From Thermoplasmata archaeon (lineage in GTDB: Archaea; Thermoplasmatota; Thermoplasmata; Lutacidiplasmatales; UBA184): DNA of 64,000 nt. Below are positions 12,326-27,847 of this stretch, in pieces. Made by a program: the position numbers and the translations under genes. Numbering within the stretch: position 1 is the first letter of the stretch; each line of letters begins with the position of its first letter. The DNA lies in assembly GCA_021806135.1 (NCBI GenBank), contig JAJZYB010000001.1:62001-126000 (forward strand), in the 5' to 3' direction. The notes beneath the pieces are model-generated. The model had not been told where the DNA came from. It saw only the letters and a program-made list of their open reading frames with translations, and did no database searches.

Positions 12326-12333
12326 TAGATATA
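12326..12333 (+). promoter_or_regulatory. TATA box of the aro-asd-lysC-trp operon
   Basis: TAGATATA, the only AT-rich octamer in the region, ends 24 nt before the ATG of the leader peptide at 12358. That spacing is the same as for leaderless genes elsewhere in the window, so transcription should begin at or next to this ATG. Confidence 0.7.
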
Positions 12334-12357
12334 GGGCCCCCCCTCCTTGCCTTTCCC

Positions 12358-12423
12358 ATGATGAGCGCTCTCCGGCCCGCCGACCCTGGCCGCCGGGACG
12401 CTCCTCGAACTTGGGCCTGGTGA
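12358..12423 (+). CDS. trpL: Putative tryptophan leader peptide (MMSALRPADPGRRDAPRTWAW)
   Basis: A 21-codon frame with two adjacent ATGs (12358, 12361) that ends ACT TGG GCC TGG TGA, so two of its last three codons are Trp. It starts 24 nt after a TATA box and about 100 nt before the first gene of a 15-gene operon whose end product is tryptophan. The layout matches bacterial trp leader peptides, where stalling at Trp codons selects between RNA folds. That it is translated, and that it regulates, is inferred. Confidence 0.55.
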   Translation: MMSALRPADPGRRDAPRTWAW

Positions 12424-12489
12424 GGGGGAGGTGCCGGGACGGCGCCTTCCCCCGATCCTCTGACCGGGGCCGTCCAGGCCACCTCCCCC
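12424..12489 (+). promoter_or_regulatory. Candidate attenuator: mutually exclusive stems after the trp leader
   Basis: GGGGGAGGTG (12424-12433), directly after the leader stop, is a perfect 10-nt complement of CACCTCCCCC (12480-12489); inside that, GGACGG (12437-12442) pairs with CCGTCC (12470-12475), giving a long imperfect hairpin. The same 5' arm can instead pair with CCTTCCCCC (12445-12453). A ribosome held on the Trp codons at 12412-12420 would cover the shared 5' arm and stop both folds. The output (termination or access to the downstream site) cannot be read. Confidence 0.5.
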
Positions 12490-12522
12490 TCCCCTTCCCC
12501 AGATGTGGAAAGAGAGGAAAAC

Positions 12523-13284
12523 ATGAACGGAAAGGACCTGCGGCTCCGGCGGCTGCTCCCCCGAGACGATTCCCGGCTCTTCGCGGTCCCCCTGGACCAT
12601 AGCCTCTCCCTGGGGCCCATCCCCGGGCTCGAGGACCTGGCGCGCCAGGCCGTCGCCCTGCAGGAGGCCGGCGCAGAGTTGCTCATCGTCCACAAAGGAG
12701 CGAGCCGGCAGGTCCTCCCCACGCTTCGTCCCGGGACATTCCTGGGGATCCATCTCTCCGCCTCTACCTCCATGGCGGCGCCGGGGGAAAGGAAGCGGCT
12801 GACCGGTTCGGTCCGGGAGGCCGTCCGCCTGGGGGCCGACCTCGTGAGCGCCCAGGTGAACTTCGGTGAGCCGGGGGAAGGGACGATGCTCGAGGACCTC
12901 GCGCGCCTCACGGGCGAGGCGGAGGAGCTGGGCATCCCGCTGCTGTGCATGGCGTACGTGCGGGAGCGCGGACACGAGAACGACCCGGCCTACCTCGCCC
13001 ATGCCTGCCGGGCTGTCTCCGACCTGGGGGCGGACCTGGTGAAGACGAACTTTCCCGGTCCGGAGGGGTTCCGCCAGATGGTGCGGACCACACCGGTACC
13101 TCTCCTGGTGGGAGGGGGCCCCCGGGCGGACGACCCGGCCCAATTCCTCACCGTGGTCCGCCAGGCCCTCGACGCCGGTGCCCGGGGGATCTGCGTGGGT
13201 CGGAACCTCTTCCAGAGCGGCGACCTGGCCACCCTGGGAGGCGACCTCCGCCGCCTCCTTCGTTCCCCGGGGAGGGAACCCTGA
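12523..13284 (+). CDS. aroA': 2-amino-3,7-dideoxy-D-threo-hept-6-ulosonate (ADH) synthase
   Basis: A 253-residue TIM-barrel protein of the DeoC/LacD aldolase family: FAVPLDHSLSLGPIPGLED at the N-terminus, the Schiff-base strand DLVKTNF near residue 180, and a phosphate-binding GGGPRADD and GICVGRNLFQ. ADH synthase joins aspartate semialdehyde to a deoxyketo-hexose phosphate in the archaeal entry to the shikimate pathway, replacing DAHP synthase. ATG 12523 has the Shine-Dalgarno AGAGGA 6-8 nt upstream; GTG 12505 is an in-frame alternative. It is the first structural gene of the operon, and asd (its substrate supplier) is further on. Confidence 0.9.
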   Translation: MNGKDLRLRRLLPRDDSRLFAVPLDHSLSLGPIPGLEDLARQAVALQEAGAELLIVHKGASRQVLPTLRPGTFLGIHLSASTSMAAPGERKRLTGSVREAVRLGADLVSAQVNFGEPGEGTMLEDLARLTGEAEELGIPLLCMAYVRERGHENDPAYLAHACRAVSDLGADLVKTNFPGPEGFRQMVRTTPVPLLVGGGPRADDPAQFLTVVRQALDAGARGICVGRNLFQSGDLATLGGDLRRLLRSPGREP

Positions 13285-13290
13285 CGGACC

Positions 13291-14310
13291 ATGGGACCAG
13301 ATCGGATCATCCTTGAACTCCCTCCCGGCGAGCCGGGAAGGGCCTTGCGCTCCCACGCGCGGCAGCGGGGTTTCCAACGCTTCCTCCTTCCCGAGGAGGA
13401 CCGGTCGGCCGACCGGGGCGAGCCGGGCGTTCACTATCTGGCCGGTGAGCGCCTCCTGGACCCGCAGGGACGCCCGGTGGGCGAGGTCGTGCCCGTGGGC
13501 TCGCCGGAAGAGCTGGAACGCTTCCTGGTGCGGATGCCCCACGACCGCCTCGAGCTCGTCGAGTTCCAGGGGGAGAGGTTGATCCCCCTGGAGAACCTGC
13601 TGAGCCGGCGGAAGGGCACCGGCGAACTGTGGGTACGGGCCCCCACCCCCTCCTCCATCCCTGGGTTGCTCGGCGCCCTCGAGCGTGGCTCGGATGCCGT
13701 GGTCCTCGCCCTCTCGCGCACGGAGGAGCTCATGGACTTGGAGCATCTCCTCGAGCAGGCGGTGAGGGCCCTGATGTGGACCGAGGTGGTCGTCCGGGAG
13801 AGCCGACCCGCCGGGATGGGGGAACGGGTCCTGGTGGACACCACCTCCCGGCTCCGGCCCGACGAGGGACTCCTGGTGGGCAGTCAGGCGGGGCTCCTCC
13901 TGCTCGCCCTCAGCGAGTCGGAGGGGTCGCGGTACACGCGACCCCGGGCATTCCGGGTCAACGCCGGGGCCCTCCATTCGTACACCCTGCTGGCGGAGGG
14001 GGAGACCCGATACCTGGACGAGCTGGCGGCCGGGGACCGGGTGGTCATCTCGCGACCGGACGGGCCAGCCCGGACGGCCCGGGTCGGTCGCCTCAAGGTG
14101 GAGCGCCGCCCGCTTCGGCTGGTGGCGGTGGAGCACGAGCAGCGGACGTACACCCTCTTCGCTCAGGAGGCGGAGACGGTCCGGCTCCGGGGAACCGACG
14201 GCCCGGTCGCCGTCCCGGATCTGGTCGTGGGTCAACGGCTGTGGGCCGTCACCCTTCCGTCAGCCCGCCACTTCGGACATGTGGTGGACGAGTCCGTGGA
14301 GGAGCGTTGA
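13291..14310 (+). CDS. aroB': 3-dehydroquinate synthase II (archaeal type)
   Basis: A 339-residue protein of the AroB' family (PF01959 type). Recognisable pieces are ELWVRAPTPSS, DAVVLALSRTEELMDLE, VDTTSRLRPDEGLLVGSQAGLLLLALSES and NAGALHSYTLLAEGETRYLDEL. It uses NAD to convert ADH to 3-dehydroquinate with oxidative deamination, the second step of the modified archaeal route. ATG 13291 is 7 nt after the previous stop. The last codons overlap the start of the aroD-aroE fusion (TTGA). Confidence 0.9.
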   Translation: MGPDRIILELPPGEPGRALRSHARQRGFQRFLLPEEDRSADRGEPGVHYLAGERLLDPQGRPVGEVVPVGSPEELERFLVRMPHDRLELVEFQGERLIPLENLLSRRKGTGELWVRAPTPSSIPGLLGALERGSDAVVLALSRTEELMDLEHLLEQAVRALMWTEVVVRESRPAGMGERVLVDTTSRLRPDEGLLVGSQAGLLLLALSESEGSRYTRPRAFRVNAGALHSYTLLAEGETRYLDELAAGDRVVISRPDGPARTARVGRLKVERRPLRLVAVEHEQRTYTLFAQEAETVRLRGTDGPVAVPDLVVGQRLWAVTLPSARHFGHVVDESVEER

Positions 14311-15857
14311 CCGAGTCCGTACCCCTGCCCCCTTTGCTGGTGGTCACCCTGCCGGGCCGGACGGCGGAGGAGCTCAGGGCCGACCTCGGGGAGGCCGCTC
14401 GGGCCGGGGCCGACCTGGTGGAGATCCGGCTCGACCGCCTGTCCCCCGGGGAGTTCACCCGGCTGGAGCGGGTCCACGACCTCCCGCTGCTTCACCCCTG
14501 GATCCCCGCCATCGGCACCCTTCGTTCCCGGGCGGAAGGGGGAGAGGGGCCCGATGACCCCGCCACGCGCGCCCGGATCCTCCAGCGTGCCCTGGAGCTC
14601 TTCCCCTTCAGCTTCCTCGACCTGGAGTTCTCCCGGGATGGGGAGCTTAAGGACAACTTCCGGCAGGATGGTGGCCGGCCGCTCTCCTTGATCGGATCGA
14701 CCCACTTCCCCGGGCCGGTACCCGTCGGGTCGGTGCTCTCCCGGCTCGAAGAGACGCTCGGGTCGTTCGATGTGGCGAAGGTGGTCCTACCGGCGGACGG
14801 ACGCTACCTGGTCGAGGAGCTGCTCCCCGCCCTCCAGCCGTTCAAGGACCGGCCGTACGTGGTCCACACGGTGGGAGGACTGGGGTCGGTCCTGCGCGTG
14901 CTGGCCCGGCGCCTGGGCATGGAATGGGTCTTCGGGACATTGCCGGAAGGTCCCCCGGGCCGGGCGACGCACCGAGCTGTGGAACCCGCTCAGATCCCGT
15001 CGGATCGCCTCCGGCGCTACCTGGATGCCCCCGGGGATTGCCCCTGGTACGGCGTGGTCGGCCGCCCGCTCGGGCACACCCTTTCGCCATACTACCAGAA
15101 CCTGTTCTTCGAGGCCACCGAGCTCTGCGGCCTCTACGTCCCCCTCGAACCCTCCGCCTCGGACGACCTGCCTGGACTGCTCCGGGCCCTTCGGCCCTAC
15201 GGGCTCGCGGGGGTCAACGTGACCCGTCCGTTCAAGACCCAGGCCGCCGCACTGGCCGAGAGCGCCGACGAGGACGTGGAGCTCTCCGGGGCGGCCAACA
15301 CGCTCCTGTTGCCCCCGACCGGGCCCATCGAAGGGCTCAACACCGACGTCCAGGCCCTCCGCCGGCGGCTGGAGGAGGGGGAGCAGGAGGGGCTCTGGGA
15401 CGGGGGCCGGATGCTGGTGGTCGGGACCGGAGGCGCCGCCCGGGCGGCCATCCTCGCCGGCCTGGGAGCCAGCGCCCGGGTGCTGGTCCTGAGCCGGAGC
15501 CCGGAGCGGGCCAGCGCCCTCGCGGCGGAGTTCCCGTCCGAAGCGGTCCGTCCGGCAGCTCCGGAGACCCTGACCCCCTTCCCCCTGGTGGTCCATGCCA
15601 CCCCTGCCGGCCAGACCGCCGAACCGGGCACCTTTCCCCCTCTCGCAGCCGCGTTGGGGAAGGGGAGCTGGCTGCTCGACCTCGTGTACCGACCGCTCCG
15701 TACCCAGCTGAAGGACTGGGCCAATGCCGTGGGGGCATGCTACGAGGACGGGACCCGGATCCTCCTCTACCAGGCCCGGGCGAGCTTTGAACGCTTCACC
15801 GGCAGGCCCCTCTCCGACGCGACCTTTGGGGCGCTCCTTCCGGAGGCCTCCCGATGA
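14307..15857 (+). CDS. aroDE: Fused 3-dehydroquinate dehydratase (AroD) - shikimate dehydrogenase (AroE)
   Basis: A 516-residue two-domain protein. Residues 1-240 are a type I dehydroquinase: ADLVEIRLDRLSP, LIGSTHFPG and AKVVLPA with the expected Schiff-base Lys. Residues 245-516 are shikimate dehydrogenase: GVVGRPLGHTLSPYYQN, GVNVTRPFKTQA with catalytic Lys, GAANTLLL, GLNTDV, and the nucleotide motif GTGGAARA. It does the third and fourth steps of the common pathway. TTG 14307 overlaps the aroB' stop; the longer ORF is out of frame with aroB'. The fused order is the one known from plants and some bacteria. Confidence 0.92.
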   Translation: MTESVPLPPLLVVTLPGRTAEELRADLGEAARAGADLVEIRLDRLSPGEFTRLERVHDLPLLHPWIPAIGTLRSRAEGGEGPDDPATRARILQRALELFPFSFLDLEFSRDGELKDNFRQDGGRPLSLIGSTHFPGPVPVGSVLSRLEETLGSFDVAKVVLPADGRYLVEELLPALQPFKDRPYVVHTVGGLGSVLRVLARRLGMEWVFGTLPEGPPGRATHRAVEPAQIPSDRLRRYLDAPGDCPWYGVVGRPLGHTLSPYYQNLFFEATELCGLYVPLEPSASDDLPGLLRALRPYGLAGVNVTRPFKTQAAALAESADEDVELSGAANTLLLPPTGPIEGLNTDVQALRRRLEEGEQEGLWDGGRMLVVGTGGAARAAILAGLGASARVLVLSRSPERASALAAEFPSEAVRPAAPETLTPFPLVVHATPAGQTAEPGTFPPLAAALGKGSWLLDLVYRPLRTQLKDWANAVGACYEDGTRILLYQARASFERFTGRPLSDATFGALLPEASR

Positions 15858-16705
15858 CCCGGGCGGGGCGGGGAACCGCCTGGGGAGGGATCTCCTTCCT
15901 CAACGGCATCCCCACGGGAGTCGGGTCCACGGCCGCCGTCCGGCTACCGGTAGAGGTGACCGTGGAGCCGGGGGTCTCGGAGGAGGCGTTGCCGGAGGGT
16001 CTGGACGGGGTGCTCCGGGAGAGCCTACGAGCCCTGGGCGATGGGCCGGACGGCGAGCGGGACCGCCCCCTGCGGGTGCGGGTGCGATCCGCCGTTCCCC
16101 CGGGTCAAGGTTTGAAAAGCTCCTCCGCGGTCTCGATCGCCCTCCTCCGCGCGCTCCGGGACCGGTGGGGCAGCCCTCCCCTTCCTCCCGAGGACCTGGC
16201 CCGGCTCAGCGCCCGGGTCTGTAGGGCGGCCGGTCTCAGCATCACGGGAGCCTACGACGACGCGCTCGCCTCGGCCGGCGGCGGGATCGTGCTGGGGGAT
16301 GTCCGGGGGGAACAGACCCTCCGCAAGGACGACCCGCCCCCGGGAGTCGCGGTACTCCTGTGGCTGCCGGGAGGCACCCATCCGGAGGTTGCCCTCCTCC
16401 GCCAGCACTGGAACCGGGTGCACTCGCCCGAGGCGAAGGCCGCCGAGGCCGAGGCCCGGGCCGGCCGGTACTTCGAGGCCATGGAGCTGAACACCCTGCT
16501 GGTGGAACGGGTCCTGGGATACCCCTGGGGAGAGCTCCGCCGTCGACTGAAGGCGGCGGGGGCGCTTGCCTCGGGGGTCTCCGGAAACGGTCCGGCCCTG
16601 GCCGTGGTGATCCCCAGCGGAACCGAGCGGCGCTTCGATGGCATCTTCCTCACCGGAGAGCTCCTCCAGACCACGCTAGTCCCGGCCGGCGAGGCGCCCC
16701 CATGA
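15854..16705 (+). CDS. aroK: Shikimate kinase, archaeal GHMP type
   Basis: A 283-residue GHMP-family kinase, non-homologous to bacterial AroK. The ATP motif PPGQGLKSSSAVSIALL is near residue 85, SITGAYDDALASAGGG follows, and the C-terminal SGVSGNGPALAVV is motif 3. It phosphorylates shikimate at O3. The ATG overlaps the aroDE stop (ATGA). Confidence 0.92.
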   Translation: MTRAGRGTAWGGISFLNGIPTGVGSTAAVRLPVEVTVEPGVSEEALPEGLDGVLRESLRALGDGPDGERDRPLRVRVRSAVPPGQGLKSSSAVSIALLRALRDRWGSPPLPPEDLARLSARVCRAAGLSITGAYDDALASAGGGIVLGDVRGEQTLRKDDPPPGVAVLLWLPGGTHPEVALLRQHWNRVHSPEAKAAEAEARAGRYFEAMELNTLLVERVLGYPWGELRRRLKAAGALASGVSGNGPALAVVIPSGTERRFDGIFLTGELLQTTLVPAGEAPP

Positions 16706-18060
16706 CCCCCCCGAGGGCTCTCGCCCCCGGGAGCGAGGCGGGGGAGGTCTGGCGGATCGTGCCGGGGCCCCTTTCCGGCAGGCTCGTCGGGTCGGGGTCC
16801 AAGAGCTACACCCACCGCGCCCTCCTGGCGGGGCTGCTCGGCCGGGGACGGATGACCATCCATCACCCCCTGGTCTCCGACGACACCGCGGCGAGCCTGG
16901 GGGTCTCCAGGGCGCTAGGTGCGACGGTGCACGAGCGCACGGACGGCCCCGGGCTTTCCTGGGACCTGGATGCGAGCGAGGCCCTCCACCCGACCCGCCA
17001 GACCCGGCGGCTCTGGGCCGGGGAGTCCGGGACCACCCTACGCCTCTTCACCCCGGCGAGCACCCTTCCCGGGACACCGGTCCGGTGGGACGGGGAAGCC
17101 TCCCTCGCCCGTCGGCCCATGGATCCGCTCCTTCGAGCCCTATCGGAGCTGGGGGCACGGGTCCGTCCCGCGGCCCCGGGCCGGAGCCTCCCGTTCCGGA
17201 TCGAGGGGCCTCTTTCCGCGGGGACCGTGACGCTCCCGGGCTCCGTGAGCAGCCAGTTCCTGTCCGGACTGCTCTTCGCGCTCGCGGGGCTGCCTTCGCC
17301 CAGCCGGGTCCGGGTTCAGGGCCCCCAGGTCTCCCAGCCGTACGTGGAGGCGAGCCTGCGGGTGCTCGGTGCCTTCGGGGTGCGGATCCAGCGGGGTCGA
17401 GGCTGGTACGGGGTCCCCGGGAACGGCCCGTTCCGGCCCGTCCCGCTGGAGATCCCCGCGGACGCGAGCTCAGCCGCCTACCTCTTCGCCGGAGCAGCGC
17501 TGTCGGGCGGGACGGTCCGTGTCGGGCCCTTTCCGGTCGGATGGCCGCAAGCCGACCTCGCCGTGCTGCCGGTCCTGCGGGCCGTGGGCGCCCGCGTCGT
17601 CCGGCGAGGGACCGACTGGGAGGTCTCCGGCGGCCCGCTCCCTCTCCGTCCGTTCCGGGCGGACCTCGATGCGTCTCCGGACCTCGCCCCCCTGCTCGCG
17701 GTCCTCGCCAGCTTCGGACGGGGGGTGAGCCGACTGACCGGGGGCGCCCAGTTGGTGCACAAGGAGAGCGACCGTCGTCGCGGGACCGAAGCGCTCGTGC
17801 GGTCCTTGGGGGCGAGGCTCCGACGTTCCAGGGAGGAGTGGGCGATCCAGGGACCCCCGTCGGTCCGCAGGCTGAGACGGCTTACGCTCTCGGACCATCG
17901 GCTCCTCTTCTCGGCGGCGGTGGCCGCCCTCGCCTTGCCCGAGCCGTCGACGCTCGGACCGGGGTCCGCCGCCGCCAAGTCCTATCCCCGGTTCTTCCAG
18001 GACCTGGCCGGCCTCGGGGTCGCCGTCCGTCCCACCGGGCGGAAGGGGGTGGGCGGATGA
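16702..18060 (+). CDS. aroA: EPSP synthase (3-phosphoshikimate 1-carboxyvinyltransferase)
   Basis: A 452-residue enolpyruvyl transferase: GSGSKSYTHRALLAGLL (shikimate-phosphate site), LWAGESGTTLRLF, GSVSSQFLSGLLFAL, EIPADASSAAYLFAGAAL, and HKESDRRRG near the C-terminus. It makes 5-enolpyruvylshikimate 3-phosphate. The extra 20-residue N-terminus before RIVPGPLSG is unremarkable. The ATG 16702 overlaps the aroK stop. Confidence 0.94.
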   Translation: MTPPRALAPGSEAGEVWRIVPGPLSGRLVGSGSKSYTHRALLAGLLGRGRMTIHHPLVSDDTAASLGVSRALGATVHERTDGPGLSWDLDASEALHPTRQTRRLWAGESGTTLRLFTPASTLPGTPVRWDGEASLARRPMDPLLRALSELGARVRPAAPGRSLPFRIEGPLSAGTVTLPGSVSSQFLSGLLFALAGLPSPSRVRVQGPQVSQPYVEASLRVLGAFGVRIQRGRGWYGVPGNGPFRPVPLEIPADASSAAYLFAGAALSGGTVRVGPFPVGWPQADLAVLPVLRAVGARVVRRGTDWEVSGGPLPLRPFRADLDASPDLAPLLAVLASFGRGVSRLTGGAQLVHKESDRRRGTEALVRSLGARLRRSREEWAIQGPPSVRRLRRLTLSDHRLLFSAAVAALALPEPSTLGPGSAAAKSYPRFFQDLAGLGVAVRPTGRKGVGG

Positions 18061-19145
18061 GGATGCGCTTCGGCGAGGCGCTCCAGGTCACGGTCTTTGG
18101 ATCGAGCCATGGGCCGGATGTCGGTTCGGTGGTGGAGGGCCTTCCCGCCGGGCTCCCGGTCGACCTGACGGGGATCCAGGCGGAGCTCGACCGACGTAGC
18201 CCCGTCGGGAGGAAGCTCGCCACCCGCCGGGCGGAGCGGGACCAGCTCATCCTCACCCATGGGGTCTCCGGGGGGAGGACCACGGGGGGACCGGTGGTCG
18301 GGTACGTGAGGAACGAGGACGTTCGCCGGGGACCGTACCGCCCCCTGGAGGACGTTCCCCGCCCGGGACACGCCGATTACCCGGCGCGCGAGCGCTACGG
18401 CGGGTCTTTGGACCTCTCTGGAGGAGGGATCTTCTCCGGCAGAATGACGGTGGGTCTGGTGTTGGCCGGCGCCCTCGTCCGCCCCTTCCTCACGGCCCAA
18501 GGGGTCTCTGTCGTCGCCTTCACACGGTCGATCCACGGGATCTCCGTCCCCGAGACGGCCCTGTCCCTTCCGCTCACGGGACTGGAGGCGGCCTCCCGGG
18601 AGAACGAGCTGGGCGCGCCGGACCCGGACGCCGCCGAGGCCATGACCCGGTCCATCGAGGAGGCCCGCCGCTCCGGCGACAGCGTCGGGGGGATCATCGA
18701 GGCCCGGGCCGAAGGGCTACCTGTGGGCCTCGGAGAACCCTTCTTCGATTCGCTAGAGGGCTCCCTCGCCCACGCGCTCTTCGCGATCCCCGCCGTCAAG
18801 GGCGTGGAGTTCGGCTCCGGCTTTGCCTCGGCCGATCGGCTCGGGAGCGAGAACAACGACCCGTACGAAATGGTCCAGGGAACCGTCCGGACCCGGACCA
18901 ACCACGCCGGCGGGATCCTGGGAGGGCTCTCGACCGGCATGCCTCTCCTCCTCAGGGTGGTGGTGAAGCCCACGAGCTCCATCGCCCGGGAGCAGGAGTC
19001 CATCTCCCTCTCCCGGAGGACCGCGCAACGGTTGGTGGTCACCGGAAGGCACGACCCGTGCATCGTTCCCCGTGCGGTCCCAGTGGTGGAGCACGTCACC
19101 GCCTTCGTCCTCGCCGACTTCCTGCTCCGCCGGGGGCGTTCATGA
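18057..19145 (+). CDS. aroC: Chorismate synthase
   Basis: A 362-residue protein with FGSSHGPDVGSVVEGLP, RRSPVGRKLATRRAE, RPGHADYP, the GENND-like SGFASADRLGSENNDPY and GGILGGLSTGMPLLLRV, all diagnostic of chorismate synthase, an FMNH2-requiring 1,4-eliminase. The ATG at 18057 overlaps the aroA stop; a second ATG two codons on is possible. Confidence 0.95.
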   Translation: MRMRFGEALQVTVFGSSHGPDVGSVVEGLPAGLPVDLTGIQAELDRRSPVGRKLATRRAERDQLILTHGVSGGRTTGGPVVGYVRNEDVRRGPYRPLEDVPRPGHADYPARERYGGSLDLSGGGIFSGRMTVGLVLAGALVRPFLTAQGVSVVAFTRSIHGISVPETALSLPLTGLEAASRENELGAPDPDAAEAMTRSIEEARRSGDSVGGIIEARAEGLPVGLGEPFFDSLEGSLAHALFAIPAVKGVEFGSGFASADRLGSENNDPYEMVQGTVRTRTNHAGGILGGLSTGMPLLLRVVVKPTSSIAREQESISLSRRTAQRLVVTGRHDPCIVPRAVPVVEHVTAFVLADFLLRRGRS

Positions 19146-20200
19146 GCCGGATCCCCTGCGCCATCCTGGGGGCCGGCGGCTGGATCGGACAACACTTCGC
19201 CCGTCTCCTGAACGACCACCCGGAGTTCCAGGTGGAGGCGCTCACCGGGGGGAAGAGCGCAGGACGGACGCTGGGGGAGCTCTGGCAGCTCGCGGACGTC
19301 CCCGTCCCCAGCGAGCTCGGCCCCCGGCGCCTGGTCCAGCTCGCTCCGCGGGAGCTGGCGGCCCGGGGGGTCCGGGTCGTCTTCTCCGCCCTCCCCGGGT
19401 CGGAGGCCGGGCCTCTCGAGACCGAGCTTGCCCGCCGGGGGATCGCCGTCTTCTCGAACGCCTCCTCGCACCGGATGGACCCCGGGGTCCCGCTCCTGGT
19501 CCCCGAGGTCAATGGTCCTGCCCTTACGTCCCGTCGCTCGGGCCCACTCCTGGTCACCAACCCGAACTGTTCCACGGCCGGGCTGGTCCTTCCCCTGGCC
19601 CCGCTCTGGGACCGGCTCCGGCCGACGGAGGTCTTCGTGGCCACCTACCAGGCGCTCTCAGGAGCAGGTTATCCAGGGGTCCCGGCCCTTTCGGTGGTGG
19701 ACAACGTCCTGCCGTTCATCCCGGAGGAGGAGGAGAAGATGGCGGCGGAAGCGTCCAAGATCCTCGGCTTCCGTCCCGGCAACGGACCGGGACAGAGCCG
19801 GGTCCTCGCCCACTGCGTGCGCGTTCCCTCCCGGGAGGGACACCTCGAGGCGGTGACCTTGAAGGTCCGCCGCCCTCTCCCCGCCCGGGAGATCGTTCAG
19901 GCGTGGGAATCCTTCCACCCCCTCGAGGACGGACGCGCCTCCGGTGGCCTACCCACCGCCCCGGAACAGCCGGTGCTCTACCTTCCTGAAGAGGACCGGC
20001 CGCAGCCGCTCCGGGACCGGTGGGCGGGAGACCCGACGAGGGCCCGCGGGATGACGGTCTGCGTCGGTCGCCTCCGGATCGATGGGCCGTACGTCCGCTT
20101 CATCCTTCTCGCGCACAACGCCGTCCGCGGCGGAGCCGGAGGGTCTGTGCTCAACGCCGAATACGCCCGATACAGGGGGGCCCTTGGACCCGGACGCTGA
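19142..20200 (+). CDS. asd: Aspartate-semialdehyde dehydrogenase
   Basis: A 352-residue enzyme: Rossmann motif AILGAGGWIGQHFARLL, catalytic LVTNPNCST with Cys143, and the archaeal/fungal-type C-terminus ending MTVCVGRLR and HNAVRGGAGGSVLNAEY. It reduces aspartyl phosphate to aspartate semialdehyde, which is both the lysine/threonine precursor and the substrate of the ADH synthase at the head of this operon, so its presence here makes biochemical sense. It overlaps aroC by 4 nt. Confidence 0.94.
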   Translation: MSRIPCAILGAGGWIGQHFARLLNDHPEFQVEALTGGKSAGRTLGELWQLADVPVPSELGPRRLVQLAPRELAARGVRVVFSALPGSEAGPLETELARRGIAVFSNASSHRMDPGVPLLVPEVNGPALTSRRSGPLLVTNPNCSTAGLVLPLAPLWDRLRPTEVFVATYQALSGAGYPGVPALSVVDNVLPFIPEEEEKMAAEASKILGFRPGNGPGQSRVLAHCVRVPSREGHLEAVTLKVRRPLPAREIVQAWESFHPLEDGRASGGLPTAPEQPVLYLPEEDRPQPLRDRWAGDPTRARGMTVCVGRLRIDGPYVRFILLAHNAVRGGAGGSVLNAEYARYRGALGPGR

Positions 20201-21515
20201 GCCCCTCCCTACGGTGGTGAAGTACGGCGGGGCCGCCCTTAGCCCCGCGATGGCCCAGCGGGCCGCCGAGGATCTGCTCGGCCGGACGGGGCCGATCGTG
20301 GTGGTGGTCTCCGCCCGGGCCGGGGTGACCGACCAGTTGCTCTCCTGCCTGGAGCCCCCCTTCCGCACCGTGCGGCACGTGGAGACGGTGCAACAGATGC
20401 GGTTAGAGCACCCGGGGCTTACCCCCGCCGGGGAGACCCAGTTCCAGGCCCTGGAGCGGGACCTCAAGCGTCTGCGGTCCGAGGGCCGAGCGACCCCGGA
20501 GCTCTCCGACCGGATCCTGACCTACGGAGAACGGCTGGCCGCCTCCTGGTTCGCCGGTGAGATCCAGCGACGGGGCCGGCCGGCCCAGGCGGTTGAGGCG
20601 GACCGGCTCGGGCTCAAGACCGATGGCTCCCCCGGCGATGCCCGGGTCCTGCTCGCCGCGTCCGCCGCCCGGGTACGTCGTGGGCTGACCGGGCTCCTCG
20701 GGCGGGGGGTCCTTCCCGTGGTCACAGGCTTCCTCGGCGTCTCGAGCGGGGGCCGAGTGACCACCCTTGGCCGGGGGGGCTCCGACTATTCCGCCACCGC
20801 GCTCGCGTACTGCCTCGGCTGGTCCCGGGTCGAACTGGTCAAGCAGAGCGTGAGCCTGCGCTCTGCCGATCCCCGGCTGGTCCCGGGGACCCGGCCGGTC
20901 GAACGCTTGTCCTTCGACGAGGCAGAGGAGCTCGCCCAGTTCGGGGCGAAGGTGCTCCACCCCCGGACCATGGAGCCGGCCCGGGCCCGGGGGATGGAGG
21001 TGACCATCCGCTCCCTGGAGGACCCAACGCAGAGGACGCTGGTGGGCCCGCGTCCCGGCCCGGAGCCCCTACGCGCCATCACCCTGCTGGGCCCGGTGAG
21101 CCTCCTGCTGCTCCGGGTCCCGGGAGGGCGCCAGCGGCGAGGGGTCCTCGCCGAGGTGAGCCTCGCCCTCTCCACCGGGGGGGTCACGGTGGCCACCCTG
21201 TACACCTCCTCTGCCCTCCTGTGCATCGTGGTGGAGTCGGCCCAGGCCTCCCGGGCCCAGAAGCTTCTGAAGCGGTTCTCCCGGGTGGAGGGCGCAACGC
21301 TGGAGGGTCCCCTGCCCGCGGCGCTGGTCACCGCCATCGGGGAGGGGTTGCTCTCCGACCTGGGTCGGTTGCCCGGAGGGCTTCCTCCCCTCGTGCTCGG
21401 CGCCAGCGCCACCAATCGGACCCTTTCCCTGGCCGTCCCGGCGGACCGGGGGTTGGAGGTCCTTCGCGCGCTGCACCGGAACCTGGTGGAACGTCGGGAG
21501 GCGCCGGGCGGATGA
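20184..21515 (+). CDS. lysC: Aspartate kinase
   Basis: About 443 residues. The kinase core begins VVKYGGAALS (family consensus KFGGTS), has GRGGSDYSATALAYCLG and AQFGAKVLHPRTMEPARARGMEV, and a C-terminal ACT pair after residue 290 (SLLLLRVPGGRQRRGVLAEV). It phosphorylates aspartate, the step before asd. TTG 20184 overlaps asd by 17 nt and follows AGGGGGG; GTG 20214 or 20217 would start the protein right at the kinase core, so the start is open. The ACT domains suggest allosteric control; the effector is unknown. Confidence 0.9.
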   Translation: MDPDAEPLPTVVKYGGAALSPAMAQRAAEDLLGRTGPIVVVVSARAGVTDQLLSCLEPPFRTVRHVETVQQMRLEHPGLTPAGETQFQALERDLKRLRSEGRATPELSDRILTYGERLAASWFAGEIQRRGRPAQAVEADRLGLKTDGSPGDARVLLAASAARVRRGLTGLLGRGVLPVVTGFLGVSSGGRVTTLGRGGSDYSATALAYCLGWSRVELVKQSVSLRSADPRLVPGTRPVERLSFDEAEELAQFGAKVLHPRTMEPARARGMEVTIRSLEDPTQRTLVGPRPGPEPLRAITLLGPVSLLLLRVPGGRQRRGVLAEVSLALSTGGVTVATLYTSSALLCIVVESAQASRAQKLLKRFSRVEGATLEGPLPAALVTAIGEGLLSDLGRLPGGLPPLVLGASATNRTLSLAVPADRGLEVLRALHRNLVERREAPGG

Positions 21516-22786
21516 GGACGGCAGGGGCGGAGGTACGGGGCGACCCTCTCGAAGGCTTCCTTTCGGAGGCCCGGGAGGTCTCCGGACCGGCCTTCTACTT
21601 CGAACGCGGCCCCTCTCTGGCGGGGGACCGACGCTGGGCGATCTACGGCAGCGCGGGCGAGGAACCCTGCACCCTGCGGTCCCCCCGGGACGTCGGGACT
21701 CTCGCCGAGAAGCTGGGGGGACTCCGGACGAGCGCGGAGAGTCGCTGGTTCGGGTACCTCGGCTTCGATGCCTGCGGGCTTTTCGAACCCCTCCTCCGGG
21801 CGTCGGTCCCCTCCGGCTCCCCGTTCCCCCTTGGCCAGTTCTACCGCTTCTCCCGGATACGCTCCGGCCGACCCCGGCTTCCGGGCGCGGGCGGGCGGAG
21901 GGATCCTGGGGCCTTGACCGTGGGGCCCGTCCGGGACCAGACCAGCGCTGCCCGCTTCGAGGAGTCGGTCCGGAAGCTCCAGAGGTCGATCCTGGACGGG
22001 GAGGCCTTCCAGGTGGTCCTGGCCCACCGGCGCGAACGCTACCGTTCCGGGTCGCTGCTCCGGCTCCTCTGCCGGCTCCGGGACCGGGAACGCTACGCGT
22101 ACCTGTTCTACCTGCGCTTCGGCCCGGGGGACCGGGGCGAGGTCGTGGGGGCGTCCCCGGAGAGCGTGCTCGAGGTCCGGGACGGGCGGGCGACCATCGA
22201 TCCGATCGCCGGCACGCTGCCTCACCCGGGGCCACGACGGGGCCGGAGGGCCCGACTCCCCCTGCGCTCGGACCCCAAGGAGCTCGCCGAGCACCGGATG
22301 CTCGTGGACCTGGCCCGGAACGACCTCGGGAAGGTCTGCCAGCCAGGCTCCGTGAGGGTGCTCCGCCAGGAAGTACGGGTCCGGTATGCGCATCTGGAGC
22401 ACCTGGTGAGCCGGGTGGGGGGGGACCTCCGGCCCGAAGAGACCGCGGTCTCCGCCCTCGCGTCGGCCTTCCCGGCCGGGACCGTCAGCGGGGCGCCGAA
22501 GATCCGGGCCATCCAACTGCTTCGGCGCGAGGAGCAGACCTGGAGAGGCCCCTACGCCGGGGCCGTGGGGCTCTTCGGCCCGGGCCGGCAGGCGGATTTC
22601 GCCCTGGCGATCCGCACCGCCTTTGCGTTCGGTCCCCGGCTCTTCACCGCGGCCGGCGCGGGGATCGTCCAGGCCTCCCGCCCGAAGCAGGAATGGGAGG
22701 AGACCCACCACAAGCTCTCCACGCTGGAGGCGATCCTCGCCGAGAGCTCCCACGGCGGCGCCGACGCCGGGGAGGGGCGGTCATGA
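21512..22786 (+). CDS. trpE: Anthranilate synthase component I
   Basis: A 424-residue chorismate-binding enzyme: DPIAGTLPH, the catalytic EHRMLVDLARNDLGKV, GTVSGAPKIRAIQLL, and AGIVQASRPKQEWEETHHK. With TrpG it makes anthranilate. It is somewhat short because the N-terminal subdomain is trimmed. The Trp feedback motif LLES of the bacterial enzymes corresponds to FYFERG here, so the Ser that holds inhibitor Trp seems absent. It overlaps lysC by 4 nt. Confidence 0.93.
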   Translation: MRTAGAEVRGDPLEGFLSEAREVSGPAFYFERGPSLAGDRRWAIYGSAGEEPCTLRSPRDVGTLAEKLGGLRTSAESRWFGYLGFDACGLFEPLLRASVPSGSPFPLGQFYRFSRIRSGRPRLPGAGGRRDPGALTVGPVRDQTSAARFEESVRKLQRSILDGEAFQVVLAHRRERYRSGSLLRLLCRLRDRERYAYLFYLRFGPGDRGEVVGASPESVLEVRDGRATIDPIAGTLPHPGPRRGRRARLPLRSDPKELAEHRMLVDLARNDLGKVCQPGSVRVLRQEVRVRYAHLEHLVSRVGGDLRPEETAVSALASAFPAGTVSGAPKIRAIQLLRREEQTWRGPYAGAVGLFGPGRQADFALAIRTAFAFGPRLFTAAGAGIVQASRPKQEWEETHHKLSTLEAILAESSHGGADAGEGRS

Positions 22787-23373
22787 AGGTCCTCCTGGTG
22801 GACCATCAGGACTCCTTCGTCCACAACCTCGCCCAGGCCCTGGCCACCCTCGGGGCGGAGGTCTACACCCGGCGGTCCTCCTTCCCGTTCTCCCAGGTGA
22901 AGCGGCTGGACCCGGACGCCGTGGTCCTCTCCCCCGGCCCCGGGCACCCCTCCGACCGCGCCACGCTGGGGGTCACCTTCCGTATCCTCGAGGAGCTCTC
23001 ACCCGCCCTCCCCACGTTGGGGGTCTGCCTCGGGCATCAGGCCATCGGCTACCACTTCGGGGCGCGGGTGATCCGGGCCCCTCGTCCCTGCCACGGCGAG
23101 ACCTCGCGGGTCGAGCACGACCGGGACCCGATCTACGAAGGGCTCCCGGACCCGTTGGTGGCGGCGCGTTATCATTCGCTCGTCGTCTCGCCCCGCGGCC
23201 TTCCCGCGGACCTTAGGGTGAACGCCTGGGAACGGGAAGGGAAGACCCGGGTGATCATGGGCCTACGTCACCGTCACTTTCCCGTGGTCTCCGTGCAATT
23301 CCACCCGGAGTCCTACCTGACCCCCCAAGGACCCCGTATCCTCAAGAACTTCCTCGGGGAGGCCCGGCGGTGA
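22783..23373 (+). CDS. trpG: Anthranilate synthase component II (glutamine amidotransferase)
   Basis: A 196-residue class I glutaminase: VDHQDSFVHNLAQAL, VLSPGPGHPSD, nucleophile Cys82 in GVCLGHQAIGYHFG and the HPES of VQFHPESYLTPQG. It supplies ammonia to TrpE; it may also serve aminodeoxychorismate synthesis, though its neighbours favour Trp. It overlaps trpE (ATGA). Confidence 0.94.
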   Translation: MKVLLVDHQDSFVHNLAQALATLGAEVYTRRSSFPFSQVKRLDPDAVVLSPGPGHPSDRATLGVTFRILEELSPALPTLGVCLGHQAIGYHFGARVIRAPRPCHGETSRVEHDRDPIYEGLPDPLVAARYHSLVVSPRGLPADLRVNAWEREGKTRVIMGLRHRHFPVVSVQFHPESYLTPQGPRILKNFLGEARR

Positions 23374-24419
23374 CCGCGAAGGATCCGGTGCGGGAGGGCC
23401 GGGAATGGCTCCTTAGCCTGCAGCACCACGAGGACCTTTCCCGATCGGAGGCCTACCGCCTGGCGGAGCGGCTCGCCTCCGGCACGTTTCCCGAGGCGTT
23501 GGCGGGAGCTCTCCTGGTGGCATTGGCCGCGAAGGGGGAGAGCCCGGAGGAGATCTTCGCCTTCGCCACCTTCCTGCGTCGCCACGCCCGTGCTTTCCTC
23601 CCGGGAGAGGTCGACGGCGCGGTGGACCTCTGCGGAACCGGGGGAGCCGCTCACCCCACCTTCAACGTCTCCACGGTGAGCGCCTTCGTGGTCGCGGCCG
23701 GGGGACTGCCGGTCGTGAAGCACGGGAACTCCTCCGCCCGAGGACCCTGTGGGTCGAGCGATCTCCTGGAGGCTCTGGGCCTCCCCGTGAAGGTCTCCCC
23801 GGGCTACGCCGAGGCCTCCTTCCGGCGCGAACGGCTCGCCTTCCTCCACGCCCCCCTCTACCACCCGGCCACCGCCTCCATCGCCGGGATCCGTCGAGCC
23901 CTCGGGACGAGGACCGTCTTCAACCTGCTCGGCCCGCTGAGCAACCCCGCTCCGGTGCGGATCCAGCTCCTCGGCTGCTTCGACCGGGCCTACGCCAGGA
24001 CCGCGAGCGGACTGCTCCCGCGTCTAGGGGTCCCCCGGAGCCTCACCTTCACCGGGGAAGAGGGGACGGACGAGTTCGTCCCCGGGGGGAGGACTTTCGG
24101 CTTCGTCCGGCAGGGGGAGCGCAGCGCGAGATGCCGGTTCGAGGGACGGCGGTATCTGACTCCCCGGGAACGGAGAGGGTCCATCGGTCCCCTTCCCCCG
24201 ACCGGGGCGGCCAGGGAAGCGGAACGGCTGCTCGCCGGGGGATCGGGAGCGCGACGGGGCTCGGTCCTCCTGACTGCGGGGGCCGCGTTCTGGGTCTCCG
24301 GCCAGGACCGGACGATGAACGAGGGGATCGAGCGGGCTCGCCGGCTCCTGGACGAGGGCAAGGCACTCGAGAAGCTGCGGGCTCTCCAGGAGTTGGCGGA
24401 GGGACGGACGTGGTCGTGA
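23370..24419 (+). CDS. trpD: Anthranilate phosphoribosyltransferase
   Basis: A 349-residue type IV phosphoribosyltransferase with the PRPP motif DLCGTGGAAHPTFNVST, VKHGNSSARGPCGSSDLLEALG and FNLLGPLSNPA. It transfers phosphoribose to anthranilate. The GTG start overlaps trpG (GTGA). The usual KHGNR is KHGNS here. Confidence 0.94.
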   Translation: MTAKDPVREGREWLLSLQHHEDLSRSEAYRLAERLASGTFPEALAGALLVALAAKGESPEEIFAFATFLRRHARAFLPGEVDGAVDLCGTGGAAHPTFNVSTVSAFVVAAGGLPVVKHGNSSARGPCGSSDLLEALGLPVKVSPGYAEASFRRERLAFLHAPLYHPATASIAGIRRALGTRTVFNLLGPLSNPAPVRIQLLGCFDRAYARTASGLLPRLGVPRSLTFTGEEGTDEFVPGGRTFGFVRQGERSARCRFEGRRYLTPRERRGSIGPLPPTGAAREAERLLAGGSGARRGSVLLTAGAAFWVSGQDRTMNEGIERARRLLDEGKALEKLRALQELAEGRTWS

Positions 24420-25225
24420 ACCCCGTCGAGCCCGGGTTCCTGCGGCGGATGGTCCAGGAGGTCCGTCGCCAGCTGGAGGAAGGCGTCTACGACCAGGTCG
24501 GCGAGCCGGGGGAGCCACCGCCCGCCTCGGAGCGCTTCTCCTCGGCGATCGCCTCTGGCCAACGCCCGGGCCTCATCGCGGAGCTCAAGCACGCCTCCCC
24601 CGGATACCAGGAGGGGGAACTCCGGGCGCCTGGCCCCGAACGGTTCCTCCAGTGGGCCCGGGCCGGGGGGGCCCAGGCCATCTCGGTGGTTCCCCAGGCC
24701 TTCCGCTTCGGTGGCTCGCTGGAGGAGTTCGGGAGGGTCGCCGGGAAGAGCTCCCTCCCCGTCCTCTTCAAGGACTTCGTCCTCGACCCCCGTCAGATCC
24801 GGGCCGCTCGCCGTTGCGGGGCCCGTGCGGTGCTCCTGCTCGCGCGCCTGGAGTACGAGGGAGGGCTTTCCGGCCCGCTCGCGAGCCTGGTGGAAGAGGC
24901 GCACCGGGCCGGCCTGGAGGCGGTGGTGGAGGTCCACCGGGAAGAGGACCTCCCCAGGGCCCTGGCCTCCCGGCCGGATCTCCTCGGGGTGAACGCCCGG
25001 GACCTGGAGACCCTTGAACTGGACCGGGCCCGGGCCCTTCGCACGCTCGCCAGCGCCCGGGGACACGGGATCCCGTTGGTGGGAATGAGCGGCATCGCCG
25101 GTCCGGAAGAGGTCCGAGCCTACCAGAGGGCCGGCGCCGACGCGGTCCTGGTGGGAACCCGATTCATCGAGGCGGAGGACCCCGGGGCCTTCCTCCGTTC
25201 CTTGCGACCCGGGGAACACCGGTGA
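24416..25225 (+). CDS. trpC: Indole-3-glycerol phosphate synthase
   Basis: A 269-residue TIM barrel: PGLIAELKHASPGYQEGEL carries the first substrate Lys, LPVLFKDFVLDPRQIRAAR the catalytic Lys, GVNARDLETLELD and VGMSGIAGPEEV the phosphate site. It closes the indole ring from CdRP. The preferred GTG 24416 overlaps trpD (GTGA); another GTG lies two codons earlier. Confidence 0.93.
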   Translation: MNPVEPGFLRRMVQEVRRQLEEGVYDQVGEPGEPPPASERFSSAIASGQRPGLIAELKHASPGYQEGELRAPGPERFLQWARAGGAQAISVVPQAFRFGGSLEEFGRVAGKSSLPVLFKDFVLDPRQIRAARRCGARAVLLLARLEYEGGLSGPLASLVEEAHRAGLEAVVEVHREEDLPRALASRPDLLGVNARDLETLELDRARALRTLASARGHGIPLVGMSGIAGPEEVRAYQRAGADAVLVGTRFIEAEDPGAFLRSLRPGEHR

Positions 25226-25238
25226 GGCGGAAGGGACC

Positions 25239-25880
25239 TTGAAGGTGAAGATCTGCGGGCTGACCCGCCGGGAGGACCTCGAAGCCTGCCAAGGCGCGGA
25301 CCTCGTGGGGGTGGTGGTGGGAGTTCCCCGTTCCCCCCGCAACCTCACCTGGACGGAGGCCGAGGGCCTCCTGGCCGCGGCCCGGGGCCGGTTCCTTCGG
25401 GTGGTGGTCCTGGCCTCCCCGGCCCCCTCGGAGGTGGCCCGGGCATTCCGGGCCGGGGCGGACCGGGTCCAGCTCCACGGCCCGGTCCCCTCCGGGCTAC
25501 CCTTCGGGAGCGAAACCACGCTCATCCCTTCGCTGGCCCTGCCCAAGAGCCCCGGCGAACAGCTTCCGCCCTCCCTGGAGCGGATCTGGCACGGCCCCTA
25601 TCCGTTGGTCCACCTGGATACGGGGGGGGAGGACCGGCCGGGGGGAACCGGCAGGGCCTGGGACTGGGCCGGCTGGTCGGGGCTGATCCGTCGTGACCGC
25701 CGGCCTTTCCTCCTGGCAGGGGGGCTGACCTCGGAAAACGTCACCCGGGCCATGACGGAGCTCACCCCGTGGGGGGTGGACGTGTCCAGCGGGGTGGAGT
25801 CCCGTCCCGGACAGAAGGACCCCGTCCGCATCCAAGAGTTCATTCGGACGATCCGTGCTTGGGAGGACGCCCATGCCTGA
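25239..25880 (+). CDS. trpF: Phosphoribosylanthranilate isomerase
   Basis: A 213-residue barrel: [11 protein letters not shown] with catalytic Cys6, [17 protein letters not shown] and [16 protein letters not shown] near the C-terminus with the catalytic Asp. TTG 25239 follows GGAAGGGA by a few nt; GTG 25245 is the alternative. Its last 8 nt overlap trpB. The Trp pathway order here is E-G-D-C-F-B-A with no fusions. Confidence 0.92.
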
Positions 25881-27042
25881 GTGGTACGGCCCCTACGGAG
25901 GTTCCTACGTCCCCGAGACCTTGGTCCCGGCGTTGAAGGAGCTCGAACTGGTCTGGAAGAGTGCCCGCAGGGACCCGGAATTCCGCTCCCGGTTCCAGGA
26001 TCTGGCTCGGGACTGGGGAGGGAGGCCCACTCCCCTCTACTTCGCCGAACGGCTCACCCGGGAGGTGGGCGGGGCCGAGATCTACCTCAAGCGGGAGGAC
26101 CTGGTGCACGGGGGCGCCCACAAGCTGAACAATGCGCTCGGGCAGGGACTGTTGGCCCTGCGGCTCGGGAAGCGTCGGCTCATCGCCGAGACCGGGGCCG
26201 GACAGCACGGCGTGGCCACCGCGATGATCGGGGCGAAGCTCGGGCTGTCCACCGAGGTGTACATGGGAGCGGCGGACATGGAACGCCAGAAGCCCAACGT
26301 GCTGCGGATGCGGCTTCTCGGCGCCACCGTCCGGCCCGTGACCCAGGGGCAGCAGACCCTGAAGGAGGCGATCAACGAGGCGCTCCGGGACTGGATCGCC
26401 AACGTACAGGACACCCACTACCTCCTGGGCAGCGCCGTGGGGCCCCACCCCTTCCCTTCTCTGGTGGCGGACTTCCAATCGGTGATCGGACGGGAACTAC
26501 GAAGGCAGAGCCGGGCCCGGTGGGGACGGGACCCGGACCTGGTCCTCGCCTGCGTGGGTGGGGGATCGAACGCCATCGGGACGTTCCACCCTCTTCTCCG
26601 GGGGCCGGCCCGGCTGGTCGGGGTGGAGGCCCGGGGCTCGGGAGAGCCCTCGGGCTGGGGGGCCGCCTCCCTGGTCCGCGGTTCGGTAGGGGTACTGCAC
26701 GGGATGCGCACGTATCTCCTGCAGGACGAGGAAGGGCAGATCCTTCCCACCCAATCCGTCTCAGCGGGCCTGGACTACGCGGGGGTGGGACCGGAGCACG
26801 CCTGGTTGAAGGACTCCGGGAGGGTGGAGTACACCTCGGCCACCGACCGGGAGGCCCTCGAGGCCTTCCACCGGTTGGCGCGGACGGAGGGGATCCTGCC
26901 GGCGCTGGAGCCCTCGCACGCGCTGGCCGTGGCCCTTCAACGGGCGACGACGTTGCCCCGGGACCAGCACGTGGTGGTGACCCTATCCGGACGGGGGGAC
27001 AAGGACCTCGCGGAGGTGGAGCGGTTTGGGCCGCCTCGGTGA
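25873..27042 (+). CDS. trpB: Tryptophan synthase beta chain
   Basis: A 389-residue PLP enzyme of the TrpB1 type: [31 protein letters not shown] with PLP-Lys84, [13 protein letters not shown], the GGGSNAIG phosphate cup, and the C-terminal serine-site LSGRGDKD. It joins indole and serine. The start is ATG 25873; the seven codons upstream in the ORF track lie within trpF. Confidence 0.95.
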
Positions 27043-27847
27043 GGTCCTCCGCCAGCGCCGCGAGCGCGGAGAGGGAAGCCTTCTCACCTACCTGATGGCC
27101 GGTTCGGTCCCCCCCGAGAAGTTCCTGTCGTGTGTCCGGGCCTTCCGCGCCGCCGGGGTGACCGGGCTGGAGGTGGGCTTTCCCTTCAGTGACCCCATGG
27201 CCGAGGGCCCGGTGATCCAGCGCGCGGCGACCCTGGCCCTGGCCCGGGGCACCCGGTGGTCGGACCTCCTGGAGTTGTTGCCCCAGGTGGCCGAGGAGCT
27301 TCCCGTGGCGGTGATGACCTACCTCAACGTCATTCTGCGTCACGGCGGGGGAAAGGCGCTCGAGGAGCTCCGGTCCCACGGGGCCGACGCGGTGATCTTG
27401 CCGGACCTTCCCCTGGAGGGCCTCCGGGACCTGGGAGCTCACCGGGCCGTGAAGGGCCTGGACATCGTGCTGCTCGCTTCCCCGGCGACCGGCGCCGAGC
27501 GGCTCCGTCGGCTCGCCCGCCACACCGAGGGCTTCCTCTATCTGGTCTCCCGCTACGGAACGACCGGGCTGGGGGGAGGCACGACGCCTTCCACCAAGAC
27601 CCACGCACTGGACCTGACCGAGGAGATCCGGCAGGTCCATGCCGAACGGCCGAAGTTGCCCATCCTGGCCGGCTTCGGAGTGCGTCACGCGCAGGACATC
27701 CGTTCCTTCCTTCAACAAGGGGCGGACGGGGCCATCGTGGGCAGCCTGCTGCAGGATCGGCTCAACGAGGAAGCGCAAGTCTCTGAACTGGACGCACTGG
27801 TCCGGGCGCTCGTTCAGGGTCTGGCGAAAACGAGCACCGGGCCTTGA
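27026..27847 (+). CDS. trpA: Tryptophan synthase alpha chain
   Basis: A 273-residue TIM barrel: [54 protein letters not shown], and [11 protein letters not shown]. It releases indole to TrpB. The two catalytic acids of the Salmonella enzyme are Glu49 and Asp60; here Glu49 is kept at the same number, but position 60 is Glu (AEGP for ADGP). TTG 27026 overlaps trpB by 17 nt. It is the last gene of the operon. Confidence 0.94.

Follow-up and report, generated by a model that had tools for sequence, protein, structure and literature searches.

Leader-peptide attenuation is the textbook form of amino-acid sensing in bacteria and requires that transcription, translation, and RNA folding be tightly coordinated. 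An archaeal tryptophan operon preceded by a short open reading frame (ORF) that ends Trp-Ala-Trp-stop, and by RNA segments able to pair in alternative ways, raises the question of whether an archaeal ribosome could likewise report the supply of tryptophan, and to which output. We studied such a locus in a window of 64,000 nucleotides (G000:C36:62001-126000), i.e., the whole stretch of DNA analyzed here, and in related genomes. The host of the window, with a genome size of 1.85 Mb, is a member of Ca. Lutacidiplasmatales (Thermoplasmatota). Its nearest named relative was the MAG YP4.bin26 (90% protein identity; labeled "Thermoplasmata archaeon"), and further matches in the same search included Candidatus Lutacidiplasma silvani and UBA184; Ca. 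Lutacidiplasma is assigned to the order Ca. Lutacidiplasmatales in the phylum Thermoplasmatota (NCBI taxonomy).

A leader ORF with terminal Trp codons ahead of an aspartate-to-tryptophan operon

The operon comprises 15 genes and ends at position 27847. Its first structural gene (12523 to 13284, plus strand) encodes a putative 2-amino-3,7-dideoxy-D-threo-hept-6-ulosonate (ADTH) synthase (NCBIfam NF005556, E = 2.7e-67, below the curated cut-off). Within 13291 to 27847 on the same strand, NCBIfam searches assigned the remaining genes to DHQ synthase II, an aroD-aroE fusion, shikimate kinase, aroA, aroC, asd, and aspartokinase, and to the trp part, trpE, trpG, trpD, trpC, trpF, trpB, and trpA, so that a complete shikimate pathway is joined to trpEGDCFBA. 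Since ADTH synthase uses aspartate semialdehyde, asd and aspartokinase fit this operon, and the cluster thus leads all the way from aspartate to tryptophan.

Upstream of the operon, a TATA box was read directly from the sequence (GATATA, 12328 to 12333, plus strand; TAAATA in most relatives). It is followed, 24 nt after the hexamer, by ATG 12358, the start of a 21-codon leader ORF (12358 to 12423, plus strand; read from the sequence and from relatives), which lies 99 nt ahead of the operon. The ORF encodes MMSALRPADPGRRDAPRTWAW-stop and ends Trp-Ala-Trp-TGA. Its first Trp codon (W1, 12412 to 12414, plus strand) is the proposed regulatory stall site, based on leader comparison and predicted Shine-Dalgarno (SD) opening costs; the second (W2, 12418 to 12420, plus strand) stands immediately 5' of the TGA (12421 to 12423), and the final codon was Trp in every leader found. 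The TATA box, the 24-nt spacing, and the 21-codon ORF had all been part of the original prediction, and each was in place when we read the sequence. Leader statistics were based on the 61 leaders with enough sequence. In 60 of them the ATG stood 22 to 25 nt after the TATA hexamer, so the transcript start is predicted at or next to the ATG, and the leader mRNA would be leaderless, as had been proposed.

Upstream regions of first-gene homologues were collected from a family set of 103 genomes, and the layout recurred in 66 of them: TATA box, 22 to 25 nt, ATG, a free body of about 23 codons, Trp-x-Trp, TGA, and an RNA element, A. A comparison of relatives for clustered Trp codons and covarying stems, suggested along with the original prediction, therefore had a positive outcome. 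The leader was recognized directly in 62 genomes. A covariance model (R1), trained on genera g6 and g7 alone and with the window excluded, added G077, G099, and G100, where it lies before the same aro gene, and G003, where it lies before trpE. R1 matched the window with E = 1.7e-6 and G003 with E = 2.3e-5, and found one locus per genome (apart from two redundant contigs, in G072 and G082). Applied to 400 genomes of the class, R1 matched nothing outside the family, and among 40 regions upstream of trpE in the other families of this class there was no Trp leader with this layout. When, in search of leaders for other amino acids, a 0.8-Mb contig of G043 was scanned for a TATA box plus a leaderless mini-ORF, seven candidates were obtained, and only the known leader among them had a terminal Trp cluster before a gene. 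In G001 (90% protein identity), the 21-codon frame aligned without gaps to a diverged body, with RTWAW-stop unchanged and the 100 nt past the stop near-identical to the window.

The ORF was in frame in 60 of the 61 leaders and 21 to 24 codons long (exactly 23 codons in 50 of them). Apart from its fixed ends, the body was free in sequence, as it is in bacterial attenuator peptides. None of 1,134 body codons specified Trp, which was confined to the last codons, with the C-terminal ends WLW, WAW, WSW, WPW, WWW, PWW, and WSWW. Trp codons directly at the stop and a near-constant ORF length would also suit a TnaC-like arrest peptide, in which free tryptophan would be sensed at the stop by the nascent peptide with its C-terminal Trp-x-Trp. 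We consider such a peptide quite improbable: residues N-terminal of the Trp pair are not conserved, the body shows no conserved tunnel residues, and Trp number and spacing vary (WLW, WWW, PWW, WSWW). Such variation, together with free flanking residues, is what the reading of codons, and not the recognition of a peptide, would lead one to expect. The near-constant length despite a free body may have its reason in ribosome-polymerase timing or in a readout of peptide length. One leader (L075, from G044) has a single Trp (GSW-stop), and its sister G033 has WSW-stop; G044 either lost the first Trp codon or contains a sequence error.

At these same loci, Trp-x-Trp-stop motifs numbered 64 on the sense strand versus 2 on the antisense strand. 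This bears on the suspicion of a chance layout without function in GC-rich DNA, for which it can be said that GC-rich sequence folds strongly and that the Rfam matches were chance ones below threshold. With the strand bias and 66 genomes keeping the leader, with covariation, we regard that explanation as exceedingly improbable and in fact already refuted, and we are virtually certain that the leader is a real and conserved feature.

Alternative pairings downstream of the stop codon

Adjoining the stop codon, GGGGGAGGTG (12424 to 12433) has its perfect complement in CACCTCCCCC (12480 to 12489), 46 nt downstream, with GGACGG (12437 to 12442) and CCGTCC (12470 to 12475) between the two arms and CCTTCCCCC (12445 to 12453) as an alternative partner of the post-stop arm. 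The exact inverted pair occurs at a single place in the 1.85-Mb genome, and the leader of the window folded with z = -3.2 versus dinucleotide shuffles. Four elements, all on the plus strand, were delimited. Element A (GGGGGAGGTGCC, 12424 to 12435), straight after the stop, is the shared 5' arm in the A:C and A:B comparisons. Element B (GGCGCCTTCCCCC, 12441 to 12453) is the local hairpin partner of A across a loop (12436 to 12440), as judged from pairing among leaders and from energies. Element C (CCGTCCAGGCCACCTCCCCC, 20 nt, 12470 to 12489), identified by a swap test and by double changes, is the partner of A together with its loop; its 3' part and the following pyrimidines can alternatively pair with the SD. 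Element D (GGAAAGAGAGG, 12507 to 12517) is the SD region of the first gene, with a predicted partner at 12488 to 12498 that rests on the C:D swap test and on energies.

For the post-stop arm, its complement, and the enclosed GGACGG/CCGTCC, the original prediction was borne out on reading the sequence. The predicted 3' partner was present at 12480 to 12489 but extends to the 20-nt element at 12470 to 12489, and the predicted SD before the first gene was present but weak in the window (GAGAGG, 12512 to 12517); the window's own C:D helix is weak as well. Element A of the window (12424 to 12433) also holds GGAGGTG, a good match to the 16S anti-SD, of which most relatives keep only GGAGG, and element C of the window resembles the anti-SD.

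In relatives, the order after the stop was A (GGGAGGCGCC in most), loop, B (GGCGCC...CCC), a variable stem, C, and D, with C about 60 nt past the stop and its end 25 to 30 nt 5' of the start codon. Many g7 leaders (e.g., L033) have a further hairpin, CGTGC...GCACG, between B and C, which may bring C close to A.

The A:C helix of 16 bp showed compensatory changes. Its mean duplex energy of -31.4 kcal/mol beat within-genus partner swaps (0 of 5,000; z = -5.2), and 90.5% of cells were paired in the 46 aligned leaders, a value that fell to about 60% when the partner was slid along the alignment. Changes on both sides occurred in 5 pairs and 32 cells, a number of cells reached in 0 of 500 shuffles. 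Scored as ungapped pairs, A:C gained modestly (14.0 versus 13.6 for swapped partners; standard deviation, 0.14). A:B was paired in 89.7% of cells, mostly invariant. When the full alignment was folded with RNAalifold, A:B alone was recovered, and A:C was missed because C is shifted in that alignment. For C:D, the gain from joint folding exceeded that of within-genus swaps (z = -3.5; -2.4 to -3.8 depending on segment length); with fixed segments there was no covariation (z = -0.6), and the signal came from the joint fold test. The controls used for these pairings adjust for relatedness only in part. A:C is incompatible with both A:B and C:D. The A:C and A:B routes were predicted to be near equal in energy (A:C better by a mean of 4.1 kcal/mol), as those of a switch should be.

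Ribosome position as a candidate switch of translation initiation

SD opening costs were calculated at 37°C and standard salt, with the RNA ahead of the ribosome free to fold. The predicted median cost was 2.9 kcal/mol without a ribosome and 3.0 kcal/mol with the A-site at W1, compared with about 6.5 kcal/mol at the last Trp codon and 6.3 to 6.7 kcal/mol at the stop. When the ribosome edge was scanned along the leader, the cost jumped as the edge advanced from +3 to +9 relative to the stop codon. Masking of A raised the cost in 56 of 61 leaders (Wilcoxon p = 1e-10), and shuffling of A raised it in 58 of 61. The edge of the bacterial ribosome lies 8 to 13 nt ahead of the A-site, and with an edge in this range the jump fits the move from W1 to the stop. 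The footprint of the archaeal elongating ribosome, about 27 nt, fits the assumed edge (PMC12482152).

As the best explanation we propose, with a fair degree of confidence, a translational attenuator that acts in cis through the ribosome, with charged tRNA-Trp as the sensed signal. The mRNA, being leaderless, would begin at the leader ATG, and the ribosome would therefore closely trail RNA polymerase. If Trp-tRNA runs short, the ribosome would stall at W1 with its front edge ending just 5' of A, so that A and its loop are free to capture C as the 16-bp A:C helix; C could then not pair with the SD, and the first gene would be translated (ON), a state that would spread along the operon by translational coupling and polarity. 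When Trp is plentiful, the ribosome would reach the TGA and cover A during the synthesis of C and D, the C:D pairing would close the SD (OFF), and after ribosome release the A:B fold would keep the OFF state. With no ribosome at all, the model predicts ON at equilibrium. Both the direction and the output of control, as modeled here, appear moderately likely.

The direction assumed in the original prediction is probably reversed. There, the ribosome masks A during its stall at the Trp codons and so blocks an inhibitory A:C hairpin, which run-through allows to form. At W2 the ribosome edge would indeed enter A if the footprint ends at A-site+12, but masking of A raises the predicted SD opening cost, A:C leaves about 25 to 30 nt 5' of the start codon free, and stalls should come first at W1, where A is free and the SD is predicted to be open; it is the ribosome at the stop codon that would mask the arm. 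We therefore judge stall-dependent masking to be rather improbable. For the attenuator that we favor, an edge at A-site+12 means that a ribosome at W2 would mask A, and an edge at A-site+8 leaves A free at both Trp codons. The conservation of W2 is accordingly less well explained, and would be accommodated if structure can form up to about 8 nt ahead of the A-site.

None of the 61 leaders had a T-run longer than 4 after the stems, and there is therefore no intrinsic terminator. Together with the predicted pairing of C with the SD, this makes translation initiation the more likely output. The same Trp-codon sensor might instead act on transcription, if a stall uncouples ribosome and polymerase or alters FttA-type factor-dependent termination before or early in the operon. 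The tight coupling favored by a leaderless leader and the strong A:C and A:B hairpins would agree with this, but the lack of T-runs and the covarying C:D pairing, which a transcriptional switch does not need, render it unlikely.

The archaeal leader resembles the E. coli type trp/his transcription attenuators in its short ORF with clustered end-product codons, its exclusive stems with a shared arm, and the biosynthetic operon downstream. It has no U-run terminator and is therefore not a classical bacterial trp attenuator, the design on which the original prediction was modeled. Nor was there a sign of a stem within the leader ORF that could act in pausing or protection, the native duplex energy of ORF body with A being no better than that of swapped pairs. 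It differs further in its predicted target, the SD, in a shared arm past the stop, in a leaderless ORF with the Trp codons last, and in its archaeal host. Hence, the initial interpretation holds in part: a Trp-codon leader peptide with a leaderless start, alternative stems sharing a 5' arm, and control of an archaeal Trp operon are supported, the terminator design is not, and the masking direction is probably the reverse.

The proposed working is attenuator-like, and translational attenuation is its nearest logic. As in ermC and other erm-type bacterial translational attenuators, a stalled leader ribosome would set an open or closed SD downstream, with C:D as the predicted SD-sequestering alternative structure; here, the signal would be a Trp codon instead of a drug and an arrest peptide, and run-through rather than stalling would cover the switching arm. 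Actinobacterial trp attenuators likewise have Trp leader peptides and conserved complementary triples before trp operons, but are bacterial and end in terminators (PMC1262725). Among archaea, TrpY of Methanothermobacter and Tar of Thermococcus control trp and aro operons, but as DNA-binding proteins at the promoter, without a leader peptide, and a 2019 paper described knowledge of archaeal Trp control other than by TrpY as scarce (PMC6737238). One tool paper lists archaea, in general terms, among the domains with regulatory uORFs, and the portion of its text concerned gives no archaeal example (PMC10219788). We found no archaeal attenuation or leader-peptide case in the open-access literature searched. 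No Rfam family matched above its gathering score, with only chance microRNA matches far below thresholds, and no curated model for a T-box, a riboswitch, or another RNA family matched at that level.

These comparisons suggest that the translating ribosome serves as a tryptophan sensor in archaea, a trick established until now in bacteria. We lean toward the view that archaea, in Ca. Lutacidiplasmatales, independently evolved codon-sensing leader-peptide attenuation, in which a ribosome at W1 or at the stop of the leaderless mini-ORF would switch the SD of the whole aspartate-to-tryptophan operon. If true, a conserved archaeal case with a leaderless ORF and an SD switch would extend the principle beyond bacteria; it would also offer a ready means of testing ribosome position in archaea and add a regulatory part to the tools of archaeal genetics.

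Co-occurrence of the leader with trp genes

Among genomes at least 85% complete, 32 had both leader and trpE, 0 had a leader without trpE, 4 had trpE but lacked a leader at the aro gene, and 17 had neither (Fisher p = 2e-10, not corrected for the tree). Sequence comparison thus shows the leader ORF with its Trp codons and their position, the covariation of A:C and C:D, and an association with trp genes, and we consider it very probable that the leader is a Trp-codon cis-regulator. In less complete genomes, 11 had a leader but no detected trpE. Genomes without trpE mostly lacked the leader and kept the aro gene. A retained aro gene with no detected trpE was seen in many members (G013-G018, G025, G027, G029, G047-G055, G059, G060, G062, and G063). 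HisG was missing in 57 of 61 genomes searched, and the missing trpE and HisG suggest amino-acid auxotrophies in Ca. Lutacidiplasmatales.

About 6 leader changes were needed on the first-gene tree. Tree contrasts between leader and trpE amounted to about 3 to 6 independent ones, too few for significance; about 2 of 3 independent pairs were concordant, with, on average, none opposite. Genomes G004 to G006 (g2) have trpE and no leader at either the aro gene or trpE. The aro gene of G003 lacks a leader, and a full one (MAAGPCHVSYDARPAMSSCAWGW, TATA box, A, and C) lies before trpE instead (L130, G003:C4:27000-36000, near contig position 28441). This aro gene groups with other genera in the tree, a placement possibly due to transfer or a binning error. 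G026, with both leader and trpE, and G027, with neither, are well-supported sisters.
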